A stretch of DNA of 64,000 nucleotides, from NCBI RefSeq assembly GCF_004087835.1, contig NZ_CP035120.1, forward strand, positions 124,001 to 188,000. The letters are read 5' to 3'. Source of the DNA: Halorussus pelagicus. Its GTDB lineage: Archaea; Halobacteriota; Halobacteria; Halobacteriales; Haladaptataceae. Positions 18,004 through 49,759 of the stretch are shown here, one piece after another. The notes under the pieces were generated by a model. The model saw nothing but the letters and a program-made list of their open reading frames with translations. It ran no database searches and was not told where the DNA came from. The position numbers and the translations under genes were made by a program. Each line of letters begins with the position of its first letter. Positions within the stretch are counted from its first letter, which is position 1.

Positions 18004-18119
18004 ACGCAGTTCTCGAATAGACTAGCGATACAGCGTCTCTTTGGCCGGTATCGAACGGTACGGATGCCTGCAGCTTTGTCGAGGTGTTGAGTAAGACGGG
18101 CGAATTCACGCCGTTCATC

Positions 18120-18180
18120 GTACCACCGTCTGCCGGTTTCGCGTAACTACGTACCACCGTCTGCCGGTTTCGCGTAACTA
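18120..18180. repeat. 31-bp tandem direct repeat, two copies
   Basis: GTACCACCGTCTGCCGGTTT plus CGCGTAACTA and a joining C is repeated head to tail (18120-18150 and 18151-18180), the second copy lacking only the last base. It lies between the IS-like remnant and the DUF58 gene start, about 55 bp upstream of that ATG, so it may also alter that gene's promoter spacing. No larger array is present. Confidence 0.85.
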
Positions 18181-35627: not shown

Positions 35628-35830
35628 ATCGCTAGTATAACCGCCACGACTGGTCTCGTTATAGAAGTTGCACCCCGTTGATAGCCGACGCGAGCGTTAT
35701 TCGCTCCATAAATAGACGGGTTTCTTATACACGCTCCGGGCGCGCCGCGTCCGTCGCTGGGTCGGCTATCCGCTTCATCGGGGTGGGCCGCCCGCTTATT
35801 GTCGTCGGTCACGTACCCGGTTTAGGACAC

Positions 35831-36306
35831 ATGCCATCGCTCGACCGCCGCGCGTATCTCGGCGTCGCCGCGGTGCTGACGGCGTCACCGCGGTGCTGAC
35901 GGCGTCGCCGCGGTGCTGACGGCGTCGCTGGCCGGATGCTCGCGGAACGACGCCGACGAACCCACCGACCGGGAACCGCCCCCGGAGACCCAGAACCCCG
36001 ACTCCGAGAGCGAGCGTGACCCCGATTCGCGGGGCGGAGAGAGGACGCTTTCGGCGGGCGCGCCCCCGCGACGCCGGAGTCGAGGCCACCGCCGCCCTCG
36101 TCCGCGTCTCGACGCCCGAGGGGTCGCGTCTCACGGCGATTCGGGGCGGAAACAGGGGTGCGGCGGTGACGCTGGTCGCCGACCGACCGCTCCGAATCGT
36201 GAGCGGCGAGGGGAACCTCCGACTCGACGGCGGGCGAGAAAGACGACTTCGGGCCGACGACACCGTCACGTTCGTCCACGGCGGCGACCGATGGCTGGAG
36301 CGGTGA
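35831..36306 (+). pseudogene. Tat lipoprotein gene interrupted by a 20-bp triplication and a frame change
   Basis: The start MPSLDRRAYLGVAAVLTAS is a twin-arginine signal. With a single repeat copy it would run into SLAGCSRNDADEPT, a clean lipobox, then a Pro/Asp/Glu linker. Instead, 3.4 copies of a 20-bp unit (35861-35928) add 40 bases and bring a TGA into frame. A second break lies at CCCCC (36063-36067): removing one C joins TLSAGAP to RDAGVEATAALVRVSTPEGS and a C-terminal beta domain ending DDTVTFVHGGDRWLER. Either dead, or an off-state of a slippage switch. Confidence 0.75.
35861..35928. repeat. 20-bp tandem repeat, 3.4 copies, inside a signal-peptide sequence
   Basis: Unit GGCGTCGCCGCGGTGCTGAC occurs at 35861-35880, 35881-35900 (one G to A change at 35887) and 35901-35920, followed by 8 matching bases. 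Since 20 is not a multiple of 3 and the unit contains TGA in another frame, only the one-copy state gives a complete lipoprotein signal peptide. Confidence 0.92.
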
Positions 36307-43517: not shown

Positions 43518-44273
43518 ATGGACGCGAGTACACGTACAGCGACGGAGGAATCGGAACGGAGCGAAGCGGTCGTCGAGTGCGACCGCGTGACCCGCAGATA
43601 CGAACGCGGCGGTGGTGGCGGGTGGTTCTCGTTCGGCGACGACGCCGAGGAGCGCCCGACGGTGACGGCGCTCAAAGACATGTCGCTGACCATCGAGCGC
43701 GGCGAGTTCGTCGGCCTGTCGGGACCGAGCGGGAGCGGCAAGTCCACGCTCATTCACCTGCTGTCAGGACTGGACGCGCCGACCGAGGGGACGGTCACGC
43801 TCGCGGGCGAGGACGTGTCGTCGCTCACCCAGAAGCAACTGACGCGACTGCGACTGGAGCAGGTGGGCATCGTCTTCCAGCGGTTTCACCTCATGCCGTC
43901 GCTGTCCGCGCGGGCGAACGTCGCGCTCCCGCTGGTCGAGCGCGGTCTCGGCAAGTCCGAGCGCCGCGAGCAGGCCGCCGACCTGCTGGAGAAGGTCGGT
44001 CTCGGCGACCGCCAGAGCCACCGCCCCGGCGAGCTGTCCGGCGGCGAGCAACAGCGCGTCGCCGTCGCGCGGGCGCTCGCTGGCGACCCCCTCGTCGTCT
44101 TCGCCGACGAACCGACCGGCGAACTCGACACCGACACCGGCGCGGTCATCCTCGACCTGCTCGGGGACCTCGCCGAGGAGCGTGCCGTGGTCATCGCGTC
44201 GCACGACGAACGGGCGCTCGCCCGGACCGACCGCGTGGTCCGTCTGCGCGACGGGCAGGTGCAGGATGCGTGA
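43518..44273 (+). CDS. ABC transporter ATP-binding protein (MacB/LolD type)
   Basis: The 251-residue ATPase has Walker A GPSGSGKS (69-76), Q-loop Gln121, signature LSGGEQ (173-178), Walker B VVFADE (193-198) and D-loop TGELDT, the MacB/LolD-subfamily pattern. A Gly-rich insert (ERGGGGGWF, 29-37) precedes the first strand. It starts an operon with two MacB-like permeases, for extrusion or lipoprotein/antibiotic-type transport. The start at 43518 was chosen because the earlier frame has an Arg-rich N terminus. Confidence 0.94.
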
Positions 44274-44297: not shown

Positions 44298-45539
44298 ATG
44301 TCCGCAGTGAGGCGATGGCTCGGTCTCGTTGGGGTCGCGCTCCGCCGGACCGCCACGAAGGCGACACGGACCGCGCCGCGCCAGACCGCGGTGAGCGTCC
44401 TCGGCGTCGCCATCGCCGTCGCGCTCATGCTCGTCGTGACCGCGACCGGTCTCGGTCTCGTGCAGGGGACCACGGTCCGGGGCGACGCGGTGGACTACTG
44501 GGTCGTGCCCGAGTCCGGCGGCGCGTCCACGATGGTCGTCTCGACCGACTCGGCCAAACTCGGCGACGTTCACGCCAAGGGCGACGCGCTGAACGCCGAC
44601 AACCGCATCGAGTACGCGACTCCGGTCGGGATTTCGGTCCTGAAAGTGGAGACCGACGGCGGGGGAAGCGAGTACGTTCTCGGCGTCGGCGTCGTCGGGT
44701 CGCCGAAACTCGACGGAGTGGCCGGACTCCCGACCGCGCCGCTCGCTCCGGGAGACCCCTACTACGCCAACGGGAGTTACGACGGCGAGTGGACCGGCGA
44801 GGCCGTCCTCTCGTCCGGCGCGGCCCAGCGACTCGGCGTCAACGAGAGCGCCAACATCTCGGCCAGCGGCGCAATCGCCGGGTCGGGCGACCGACAGTGG
44901 CAGGTCACGGCCGCCGAGCAGGCCGCCGTCGAGTCGGGTCTCTCGGGGATGCCCGTGATGCTAGTCCACCTGAGCGAGCTACAGGCCATCACCGGCGCGC
45001 AGTCGGGCGACCAAGCCGACCAGATTCTTGTCCAGTCGAACGTCGGCGGTCTCGAATCCTCGCTCGAAGAGCGGTTCGCGGGCGCGAGCGCGGTGACGCG
45101 CTCGGGATTCACCGCACAGAACTCGGTCGATTCGGACCTGCCGCTGGCGATGGGGCTGGCGGCCCTGCTCATCGCCGTCGTCGTCGGCACGCTGTTCGTC
45201 GCCACCACGCAGGGGTTGCAGGTCGAGGCCGACAGCGAGCAGTTGGCGACCCTGACGGCCATCGGGTTCTCGCGGCGCGCACGCGCGGTCCTGCTCGTCG
45301 TGCAGGCGCTCGCGCTCACGCTCGTCGGGGGCGCGCTCGGCATCGTCCTCGCGTACGGGACGACCGCGATTACCAACTACGCCGCCACGCGGGCCATCGC
45401 GCCCGTCCCAATCGCAACCTTCCACCCCCTGCTGGTGGTCTACGGACTCGGCGTCTCGGCGTTCATCGGGATTCTCGTCGCGCCGTACTTGCTGGCGATG
45501 GAGGGCCGCACCGAGGGCGTCACGGAGGTGATTCGGTGA
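44298..45539 (+). CDS. MacB/FtsX-type ABC permease
   Basis: The 413-residue permease has an N-terminal membrane helix ([20 protein letters not shown]), a periplasmic-type MacB core domain (about 60-265) and three C-terminal helices ([63 protein letters not shown]), the FtsX topology. It is 24 bp after the ATPase gene. Its stop overlaps the first of three tandem mini-genes (GTGA). Confidence 0.93.
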
Positions 45540-45607
45540 GCAAGCTTCTCCGAACCCGACTCATCGCGGCGGCCCGAAAGCGGGCCACCGTGGAGGTAAA
45601 CCGATGA
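45536..45607 (+). CDS. 23-residue mini-gene, copy 1
   Basis: Encodes [16 protein letters not shown] plus ATVEVNR, a basic amphipathic peptide. GTG start overlaps the upstream permease stop; the stop overlaps copy 2 (ATGA). It resembles the cytoplasmic N terminus of ABC permeases (MSxLLRTRL), so it may have arisen by duplication of a gene start. Too short for standard gene calls; translation is likely because of the coupling and Shine-Dalgarno. Confidence 0.55.
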   Translation: MSKLLRTRLIAAARKRATVEVNR

Positions 45608-45675
45608 GCGAACTTCTCCGAACCCGACTCATCGCGGCGGCCCGAAAGCGGGCCGCCGTGGAGGTAAACCGATGA
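45604..45675 (+). CDS. 23-residue mini-gene, copy 2
   Basis: Encodes MSELLRTRLIAAARKR plus AAVEVNR, preceded by GGAGGT six bases upstream and coupled by ATGA overlaps to copies 1 and 3. Identical at the peptide level to copy 3. Confidence 0.55.
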   Translation: MSELLRTRLIAAARKRAAVEVNR

Positions 45676-45743
45676 GCGAACTTCTCCGAACCCGACTCAT
45701 CGCGGCGGCCCGAAAGCGGGCCGCCGTGGAGGTAAACCGATGA
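45672..45743 (+). CDS. 23-residue mini-gene, copy 3
   Basis: Same peptide as copy 2. Its stop overlaps the start of the second permease (ATGA at 45740), so ribosomes could pass from the first permease through three peptides to the second. Confidence 0.55.
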   Translation: MSELLRTRLIAAARKRAAVEVNR

Positions 45744-46954
45744 GTCGGCTTCGGGTCGCCGCCTCGGTCGCGGCCGCCCAACTCCGCCACGACCGCGCAC
45801 GGACCGTCCTCGCGGTGGTCGGCATCGCGGTGGCGGTCCTCTCGACCACCCTGCTGGCGAGCCTCGGCTACGGCGTCTTCGAGACCGGCCAGCAGAAGTT
45901 CGACGCCTCAGGCCGGGACCTCTGGGTCACGGGCGGGTCGCTCTCGGACGGTCCCGGCGGGTTCGGCACGTCCATCACCGACGCCCACGAGACGGCGGGC
46001 GACATCGAATCGCTCGACGCGGTCCAGTCGTCGGTTCCGATGGCGTTTCAGGCGGTCTACGTGGGGAACGGCTCCGGGAATATGCAGACGCTCGTCGGGG
46101 TCGGCGTCCCCGGCGGCGGCGGTGCCGTCGAAATCAGCGAGGGCGAAGGGTTCCACACGTACGACCAGCACTACGCGGGCGGCGACTACGACGGGAACAT
46201 GACCTACTCGGTCATCATCGACACCCGCACCGCGGAGATGTACGACGTGGGTGTGGGCGACACGCTCCAGATAGGCGGGTCCGTCGAGAGTGCAAAAAAC
46301 CACGAGTTTACCGTCGTCGGCATCTCGCCGACGTTCTCCAGCTTTCTAGGCGCGCCGACAACGACGATGCATCTGGGCGAACTCCAGCGAATCACGGGCA
46401 CCACCGGCACCGACAAAGCGACGTTCATCACGGTCAACGTGAACGACGGCGCGGACGTGAGCACGGTCGAACAGCGCCTCCAGCGGGAGTACCCCGACTA
46501 CACGATTCGGACGAACGACGAGCAGATGCGCGCGGTCCTCCAGCACAACGCGGTCGTCATCGCGGTCGGGGGCGCGCTGGTCGTCCTCTCGGTGGTCGCG
46601 GGGTTCGCGCTCACGCTCAACGTTCTCTCCATCGTCGTCTTCCAGCAGAAGGAGGAACTTGCGGCCCTGACCGCGCTCGGGGTCTCCTCGAAGACGCTCG
46701 TGGCGATGGTCGCCGGACAGGGCGTCCTGCTGGGCGCTCTCGGCGGGGTTCTCGGGGTCGCGGTCACGCCGCCGTTCGTGGTCGGCTTGAACTTCGTCGC
46801 GGCCGAAATCGTCGGCTTCGAGGGACTGGTGCAGGCGCCGGGGTCGGTGCTGGCGCTCGGCGGAGCCATCGCGCTGGTCATCGGCACGCTGGCGGCCGCG
46901 GTCGCTGGCTGGCGGACGCTTCGGACCGTCGGCATCGACCAACTGGCGCGGTGA
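45740..46954 (+). CDS. MacB/FtsX-type ABC permease
   Basis: The 404-residue permease has the same plan as its upstream partner: N-terminal helix (TVLAVVGIAVAVLSTTLLAS), core domain with SSFLGAPTTTMHLGELQRIT, then three helices (VVIAVGGALVVLSVVAGFALTL; GQGVLLGALGGVLGVAVTPPF; ALGGAIALVIGTLAAAVAGW). Paired, non-identical permeases with one ATPase suggest a heteromeric ABC exporter. Its ATG overlaps the last mini-gene. Confidence 0.93.
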   Translation: MSRLRVAASVAAAQLRHDRARTVLAVVGIAVAVLSTTLLASLGYGVFETGQQKFDASGRDLWVTGGSLSDGPGGFGTSITDAHETAGDIESLDAVQSSVPMAFQAVYVGNGSGNMQTLVGVGVPGGGGAVEISEGEGFHTYDQHYAGGDYDGNMTYSVIIDTRTAEMYDVGVGDTLQIGGSVESAKNHEFTVVGISPTFSSFLGAPTTTMHLGELQRITGTTGTDKATFITVNVNDGADVSTVEQRLQREYPDYTIRTNDEQMRAVLQHNAVVIAVGGALVVLSVVAGFALTLNVLSIVVFQQKEELAALTALGVSSKTLVAMVAGQGVLLGALGGVLGVAVTPPFVVGLNFVAAEIVGFEGLVQAPGSVLALGGAIALVIGTLAAAVAGWRTLRTVGIDQLAR

Positions 46955-47911: not shown

Positions 47912-49759
47912 TCAGTTCGAGTCCTCGTCATCGTCGTCACCGTTCTCCGGCGGCGCGTCCTGCACCGTCACCTGAATCGACTTGCCGAAGTCGCTGGTCA
48001 GCACGTCGAGGAAGGTCTCGCCGGAGTCAAGTCCGAGGTCGGACTCGTCCAGTCGGTACTGGACCTGCGCGGACTCGCCGGGGTCAACCTCCACTCGCTG
48101 TTCCTCGATGACGGTCCCGTCGATGCGAAGCTGTACGGTGTCCGTGAGGATTTGCTCGCTCGGGTTGCGAACCTGCGCGTTCACGACGAGTTCGCCCTCT
48201 TCCAGCACTATCGTTTCGGGCGCGGCAATCGAGACCACGCGAAGCGACGGTTCGGCCGCGGGTTCCGCCGTGGTCGTCGTTTCGGTCGGCGTCTCTTCCG
48301 CCGTCGTCGTCTCAGTCGTAGTCGTCTCTTCCGGCGGTTCCTCAGTAGTCGTTTCCGTCGTTGTCGTCTCAGTAGTCGTTTCCTCGGTCGTCGTTTCCGT
48401 CGTGGTCGTGTCGGGCATCATCTCGTCGGGCAGGTCGAACTCTGCATCCTCGGGCGCGGTCACGACGAACTCGACGTTTTGCACCGAGACGTTCCGGAAG
48501 ACGAACCGGACGTTCTGGCGGTCCGAGCGAGCGACCTGTCGGTCCTCGCTCGCGGCCTCGCCGACGCTCTCCTCGACGGAGGCCCCCCTCAGAATCTTCG
48601 TGAGGTCCACGCGGAGCGTCTGGTCGCTGACCAAGCGGTCCTCGACGACCACCGTACGGTCCACGTCGTCGGCGTCACCGACGACGAACGAGAACTCGTT
48701 GACCCGCACGTTGTCGATGCGGAACCGAATCGTCTGCTCGGGCACGGACGGTTCGGCCGCTTCGGTTGTCGTGGTGGCCTTGGTCGGCGTTTCCGTCGTT
48801 GTGGTTTCGGCCGGTTTTTCGGTTGTCGTCGTCTCGGTCGGCGTCTCGGTCGGCGTCTCAGTCGTGGTCGTCTCTGTGGTGGTCGTTTCGGTTGGCGTCT
48901 CGGTTGTCGTAGTCGTCTCTGTGGTGGTCGTTTCGGTCGGCGTCTCAGTTGTCGTAGTCGTCTCTGTGCTAGTCGTTTCGGTCGGCGTCTCGGTCGGCGT
49001 TTCCGTCGTGGTAGTTTCGGTCAGTGTTTCCGTCGTGGTAGTTTCGGTCGGCGTCTCGGTTGTCGTGGTCGTCTCCGTCGGCGTCTCAGCCGTAGTCGTT
49101 TCAGTCGGCGTCTCGGTCGGCGGTTCCGTCTCCGGCGGTTCTTCGGTCGTAGTAGTTTCAGTCGGCGTTTCCGTTTCGGGCGGTTCCTCCGTCGTAGTCG
49201 GCGTCTCCGTCGGTGTTTCCGTCTCCGGTGGCACCTCCGTCGGCGTCCCGTCAGTCCCTTCGACCGTCACCGCGGCCTCGTCCGCGACGACCTGATTGTC
49301 CACGGTGTAGGCACCGTCCTCAGCGCCCTGCGAGTCCACGAAGTCGAAGGTCTGGTTGTCGTTCGTGTCCTGATACGCCAGCGCGAGCAGGGTCCGGGAC
49401 TCCTCGATGGGTTCGTCGAGCGTCACCTCGACGTTCTCGTGAGTTCCCGCTTCGAGGTACTCCGAGACCCCGCGGACGCTACCGAGGACCGACCCGTTGA
49501 GCAGTTCCTCGTCGTGGACGACGACGAAACCGCCGTCGGCCAGCGTTACCTGCGAAATCGTGACGACGGTCCCGTCAGATGTCTGATTATCGAATGTGAC
49601 CGTCGTGTTTGCTTCCGTCTGATTCTGCGCCATCAGCTCGTTGGGCGGCGACTGGTCGGCCGCCGTCTCGGGACCCGTCGCCCCGAGAGTGGTGACCGCT
49701 CCCCCGAACACCGTTCCGAAAACGAGCATGATAGCTACGGCTACGTGCTTGCGGCTCAC
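47912..49759 (-). CDS. surface protein with DUF7282-like, Thr/Glu-repeat and CARDB-like domains
   Basis: The 615-residue protein has a signal peptide (VAVAIMLVFGTVFGGAVTTL), a DUF7282-like domain (QTSDGTVVTISQVTLADGGFVVVHDEE; LALAYQDTNDNQTFDF), then a long low-complexity region of ET-P-T-E-TTT repeats (about 173-340), a second beta domain (TIRFRIDNVRVNEFSF), a second Thr/Glu spacer and a CARDB-like end (VVNAQVRNPSEQILTDTVQL). The Thr-rich spacers are likely O-glycosylated stalks. The DNA repeats (ACGCCGAC...-type) may vary in number. Confidence 0.88.
   Translation of the reverse strand: MSRKHVAVAIMLVFGTVFGGAVTTLGATGPETAADQSPPNELMAQNQTEANTTVTFDNQTSDGTVVTISQVTLADGGFVVVHDEELLNGSVLGSVRGVSEYLEAGTHENVEVTLDEPIEESRTLLALAYQDTNDNQTFDFVDSQGAEDGAYTVDNQVVADEAAVTVEGTDGTPTEVPPETETPTETPTTTEEPPETETPTETTTTEEPPETEPPTETPTETTTAETPTETTTTTETPTETTTTETLTETTTTETPTETPTETTSTETTTTTETPTETTTTETTTTTETPTETTTTETTTTETPTETPTETTTTEKPAETTTTETPTKATTTTEAAEPSVPEQTIRFRIDNVRVNEFSFVVGDADDVDRTVVVEDRLVSDQTLRVDLTKILRGASVEESVGEAASEDRQVARSDRQNVRFVFRNVSVQNVEFVVTAPEDAEFDLPDEMMPDTTTTETTTEETTTETTTTETTTEEPPEETTTTETTTAEETPTETTTTAEPAAEPSLRVVSIAAPETIVLEEGELVVNAQVRNPSEQILTDTVQLRIDGTVIEEQRVEVDPGESAQVQYRLDESDLGLDSGETFLDVLTSDFGKSIQVTVQDAPPENGDDDDEDSN

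Follow-up and report, generated by a model that had tools for sequence, protein, structure and literature searches.

Three tandem, overlapping mini-ORFs between two permease genes of Halorussus pelagicus: probable relay ORFs for termination-reinitiation

Translational coupling between overlapping genes is known from haloarchaea, where the ATGA-overlapping gene pairs of Haloferax volcanii are among the closest described systems to the locus presented here (Huber 2019, 2023). In these pairs coupling is strict and translation of the downstream gene depends on that of the upstream gene, ribosomes do not initiate de novo at the SD motif of the tested pairs, and coupling is lost across a gap of 22-23 nt (PMC6728339, PMC10666635). 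In E. coli constructs, the last 15 nt of the upstream gene are sufficient for coupling. A second related system is the mycobacterial MIRUs, short repeats whose insertion at a start codon brings in an ORF with -4 nt coupling; the 2025 review that describes them also raises the idea that some short ORFs may serve only for ribosome delivery (PMC12548453). In Salmonella, an intergenic small ORF precedes a transporter gene (Mg2+) and promotes its translation, as it would here, but that ORF is described as translation-aborting and is tied to RNA structure at the RBS (PMC8092293). Synthetic bicistronic designs share with our locus a dispensable short cistron that bears an SD motif and whose stop overlaps the next start; the design sits at a 5' end, whereas the array described below is natural, serial and operon-internal. 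Tandem copies of MIRUs also occur, as in the case of senX3-regX3, and we know of no tandem overlap chain at the Salmonella Mg2+ transporter small ORF. In a limited literature search, no archaeal example of relay ORFs in series came to light.

In Halorussus pelagicus, three tandem copies of a 68-bp unit lie at 45536-45739 of the window (the whole 64,000-nt stretch of DNA analyzed, part of the 303-kb contig C2), between two FtsX/MacB-type permease genes. The host is an FtsX/MacB-type ABC transporter operon on the + strand, recognizable by its ATPase (43521..44273; PF00005 ABC_tran, E=1.5e-35) and its two FtsX-domain permeases. Permease 1 (P1, 44298..45539; FtsX family, PF02687, E=1.8e-9) has the C-terminus ...TEVIR*, and its stop context, CGGTGA, provides the start codon of the first mini-ORF. 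Permease 2 (P2, 45740..46954; MacB_PCD, PF12704, E=2.9e-21, plus FtsX, PF02687) starts with ATG, and the two are probably transporter partners. Tandem Repeats Finder reports the array at 45537-45744 with period 68, 3.1 copies, 97% matches, no indels and a score of 395. The layout given in the initial annotation, three 68-bp units each with its own GGAGGT and start codon and with overlapping stops, is therefore exact by both repeat finder and sequence.

Bounded by their start codons, the units run from 45536 to 45603 (GTG), 45604 to 45671 (ATG) and 45672 to 45739 (ATG). Each is a single ORF of 23 codons plus stop (72 nt) that overlaps both of its neighbors by 4 nt, through GTGA at 45536 and ATGA at 45604, 45672 and 45740, so that a stop/start overlap of the kind that marks a termination-reinitiation chain (4 nt, or 1 nt) is present at every junction. 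Mini-ORF 1 (45536..45607, +) overlaps the P1 stop; mini-ORF 2 (45604..45675, +) encodes the peptide MSELLRTRLIAAARKRAAVEVNR* with ATGA overlaps at both ends; and mini-ORF 3 (45672..45743, +), a copy of mini-ORF 2, overlaps the P2 start with its stop. All four starts, those of the mini-ORFs and of P2, have a GGAGGT 6 nt upstream on the + strand, at 45524..45529 (within the 3' end of P1), 45592..45597, 45660..45665 and 45728..45733 (before P2). Copies 2 and 3 are identical, as the initial annotation had reported, and copy 1 differs from them at 4 of 68 positions (GTG start, AAG for GAA, ACC for GCC), with none of the four differences between copies 1 and 2 synonymous. No TATA-like, AT-rich, T-rich or T-run stretch was seen inside the array, which speaks against an internal promoter for P2 and against a terminator.

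The array resembles the Haloferax volcanii pairs in its 4-nt RTGA overlaps, internal GGAGG, co-directional operon genes and haloarchaeal host. However, those pairs join two real genes, whereas Halorussus junctions have one to four serial, tiny, non-conserved ORFs in between. Like a MIRU, the unit is a short repeat located where two genes meet, and its ORF shows -4 nt coupling on either side; MIRUs, compared here by description, are dispersed and apparently mobile, whereas the Halorussus unit occupies one junction only. A whole-genome search found no second site in H. pelagicus, and elsewhere in the genus Halorussus the unit was found only at the same permease junction, which rules out a mobile or dispersed repeat. 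Relays at other Halorussus junctions (see below) have unrelated sequences, again unlike dispersed MIRUs. Origin from another gene of the same genome was also rejected, as the sole other match to the peptide, at C1:2576518 (E=1.46), is an unrelated reading frame.

Other repeats are present in the window. A signal-sequence-like start, MPSLDRRAYLGVAAVLTAS, contains a direct repeat of 20 bp at 35820-35960 (3.5 copies, 95%); its current copy number sends the frame into a stop, a lipobox-like ...LTASLAGC lies in another frame, and the frame downstream looks degraded, so the region may be a slipped-strand lipoprotein pseudogene. On the - strand, 47912-49759 holds a protein gene with long Thr/Glu/Pro-rich repeat tracts (TETPTETTTT...) and tandem repeats whose units measure 12 to 57 bp; its product is probably a surface protein. 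A perfect 31-bp direct duplication is found at 18119-18180, immediately 5' of a predicted ORF.

We consider it probable (roughly 0.75), judging from sequence, that the three mini-ORFs are relay ORFs that keep termination-reinitiation intact and whose peptide is dispensable. Ribosomes ending P1 at GTGA would re-initiate on mini-ORF 1, stop 23 codons further on at the next ATGA and re-initiate again, reaching the start of P2 in three such steps; we infer both the translation of the units and the relay of ribosomes across the array. Because a gap of a few tens of nucleotides abolishes reinitiation in haloarchaea, P2 should be silent behind a spacer of 55 to 200 nt if nothing took ribosomes over it, as a chain of overlapping mini-ORFs would. 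Coupled genes would tolerate a spacer when it can be read as ORFs whose stops overlap the next starts, and selection would then act on spacer length modulo 3, the RTGA overlaps and the GGAGG motif rather than on the peptide. Since the unit is bounded by RTGA at both ends, tandem duplication leaves the chain unbroken however many copies there are. The unit would have been amplified to three copies here with phase automatically preserved, and some sisters would have lost it cleanly. The expectation in the initial annotation that coupling is kept at any repeat number is thus borne out by the architecture, the mini-genes being coupled at both ends.

Comparison of the permease junction in 13 Halorussus genomes with an orthologous P1/P2 pair reveals zero, one, two or three mini-ORFs. 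P1 and P2 overlap directly through ATGA in 4 of the 13 and are separated by a spacer in the other 9, of which 7 have complete in-phase mini-ORF chains: 3 x 68 nt in H. pelagicus, 44+68 nt in H. salinisoli, 44+59 nt in both H. aquaticus and the genome G014, 59 nt in G003, 62 nt in G001 and 23 nt in H. halophilus. H. limi and H. caseinilyticus each have a single unit of 67 nt in which the loss of one nucleotide has destroyed the phase, in one species in the hairpin loop and in the other in GGAGG, so that coupling is dispensable or otherwise achieved in these two species, or the sequences contain errors. Copy number also varies among close relatives: a tree built from both permease genes places H. 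pelagicus (three units) as sister to G007 (none) plus H. limi (one, out of phase) with full support, so that unit number has shifted between 0 and 3 inside one close clade. The likeliest course is that G007 lost the unit cleanly, since the 67/68-nt family is also present in H. caseinilyticus and H. salinisoli, outside this clade. In more distant orthologues beyond the genus the junction is direct or nearly so, and the mini-ORFs therefore look derived within Halorussus.

The origin of the unit can be approached through its resemblance to the start of P2. Aligned in start-codon register, the H. limi and H. caseinilyticus units match the opening 48 nt of P2 better than do controls with shuffled codons (within-species pairs in these two species, p about 0.002 to 0.003), and the resemblance is weaker for the units of H. 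pelagicus and H. salinisoli. This resemblance suggests, with moderate support, that the 68-bp unit arose when part of the P1/P2 junction was duplicated in tandem. The units of G003, G001, H. aquaticus and G014 have no similarity to the P2 start, which limits such an origin to the 67/68-nt family. The three-copy array itself is best explained as local amplification of one relay.

The variation in copy number bears on the proposal that copy number sets permease stoichiometry, with ribosomes lost at each reinitiation, so that three units would yield a lower P2:P1 ratio than a direct overlap does, and one that slippage could adjust. Such tuning is compatible with a relay and the two are not mutually exclusive. 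It would fit the presence of 3, 1 and 0 copies inside one clade, the extra reinitiation step that each unit adds, and the dependence on gene pair seen in Haloferax volcanii (PMC6728339). However, the genomes give no sign of a conserved number or of within-strain variation, the permeases are probable partners, and direct overlap suffices in sisters; we regard tuning as rather unlikely.

If spacers are relays, phase should be kept elsewhere, and two further junctions were traced in all 18 genomes of the genus. Both were chosen because H. pelagicus has a relay there, so its own genome is not to be counted as evidence. At the first, flanked by genes that we take to be Hel308-like and Cgi121-like, all 14 gapped spacers are a single in-phase mini-ORF and the remaining 4 of 18 genomes have a direct overlap. 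The mini-ORFs come in 7 lengths with little sequence conservation, and were phase no constraint on length, six additional in-phase lengths would have a probability of about (1/3)^6. At the second junction, between two genes that are presumably both CheC-like, 11 of 12 gapped spacers are in-phase mini-ORF chains; the chain of G011 has two serial mini-ORFs, and two species use a start of the TAATG type. Together with the permease junction, then, phase is kept in relatives despite changes in length at all three junctions (7/9, 14/14 and 11/12 when gapped). G016 (locus L191) carries four serial coupled mini-ORFs at the CheC-like junction (MTPGNRTTE, MNGQTE, MTGDTE and MNAAGSTEP), built on a repeated ACCGAATGA motif, and so contains a second putative relay array whose sequence is unrelated to the 68-bp unit. 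SBDS and KH control junctions, a noisy set in which the upstream gene was taken as the longest nearby ORF, gave one weak relay case and otherwise none.

Spacer phase can also be assessed genome-wide. A home-made, codon-usage gene caller with a 60-codon minimum was applied to one genome, yielding 2,196 genes in 2.4 Mb of the H. pelagicus chromosome, and spacers were collected wherever an RTGA-ended gene was followed 5 to 250 nt downstream by an RTGA-starting gene. In this one genome the coupling phase was found 37 times versus 16 and 13 for the other phases (chi-square p=4e-4), and where the upstream gene was not RTGA-ended the phases showed no bias (76/77/79). Given the 60-codon minimum, genuine small genes may contribute to the phase excess when gaps are long. 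They are unlikely in gaps of up to 60 nt, for which the phases are 14/5/2. ORFs that begin at the overlapping RTG end exactly at the next start in 25 cases, versus 6 and 12 in the other frames. At these 25 junctions, on contig C1, mini-ORFs of 4 to 58 residues run from the RTGA of one gene to the RTGA of the next and are further relay candidates.

These data weigh on the idea that the array is neutral slippage debris, an amplified spacer with in-phase ORFs by chance and P2 translated independently. While the out-of-phase units in two species would be expected of debris, and a strong hairpin together with tandem copies would promote slippage, chance does not readily produce complete in-phase chains at this junction in 7 of the 9 species that have a gap, the same outcome for 25 of 26 gapped spacers from the two other junctions, or a genome-wide phase bias confined to RTGA-ended genes. 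Independent translation of P2 also fits poorly with SD motifs that lack de novo initiation in tested haloarchaeal pairs (PMC6728339), and we find debris an improbable explanation.

A feature that the initial annotation did not mention is a hairpin in every unit, GGCGGCCC-GAAAGC-GGGCCGCC, directly upstream of GGAGGT. On the + strand it lies at 45568..45589 in unit 1 (one stem mismatch, z=-1.7), at 45636..45657 in unit 2 (GGCGGCCCGAAAGCGGGCCGCC, z=-3.0) and, in the same form, at 45704..45725 in unit 3 (z=-3.0). The hairpin could be a functional element in its own right, for instance a signal between cistrons for mRNA processing, mRNA stability or pausing, given that the stem arms are invariant amid diverged flanks and that z reaches -2.8 to -4.9 in copies 2 and 3, H. 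limi and H. caseinilyticus. Yet the stem is weak or missing in H. salinisoli, H. aquaticus and G003, and an Rfam search returned no family above the gathering score and only two spurious microRNA matches, making such a role very doubtful. The relay model does not need the hairpin of the 68-nt family.

The peptides themselves are not conserved. Substitutions per codon position in homologous 67/68-nt units number 18/17/18, a pattern without the mark of purifying selection on the peptide, compared with 7/7/23 in the first codons of P2 from the same four species. In other species the mini-ORF peptides are unrelated, with 8 to 23 residues, or absent. The missing third-position excess and the unrelated peptides elsewhere both argue against a peptide function, and the recurrent C-terminal Glu-Val follows from reading the SD motif GAGGTG in the frame that the overlap imposes. 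The suggestion in the initial annotation of a basic amphipathic peptide acting on the transporter, of which three copies would give a higher dose, is thus hardly tenable, for although Arg-rich peptides occur here and in several species and H. salinisoli has a 23-residue homologue (65% identity over 20 residues), it is contradicted by these substitution and peptide comparisons and by the wholly non-synonymous changes between copies 1 and 2.

With the relay reading preferred, we lean towards a broader conclusion: that relay ORFs are a widespread class in haloarchaeal genomes which annotation has missed, with spacers between coupled genes maintained as chains of tiny overlapping ORFs. Selection would act on their length modulo 3 and their overlaps while leaving the sequence free, and the chains could lengthen by tandem duplication. 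The relay reading offers a specific purpose for translating some very short ORFs that lack conservation, namely to hand ribosomes on, and it predicts that some of the short ORFs in archaeal ribosome profiling are relays without peptide function. It would also account for operon spacers that lengthen or shrink without loss of coupling. The array is a ready-made test system for coupling through several serial termination-reinitiation steps.
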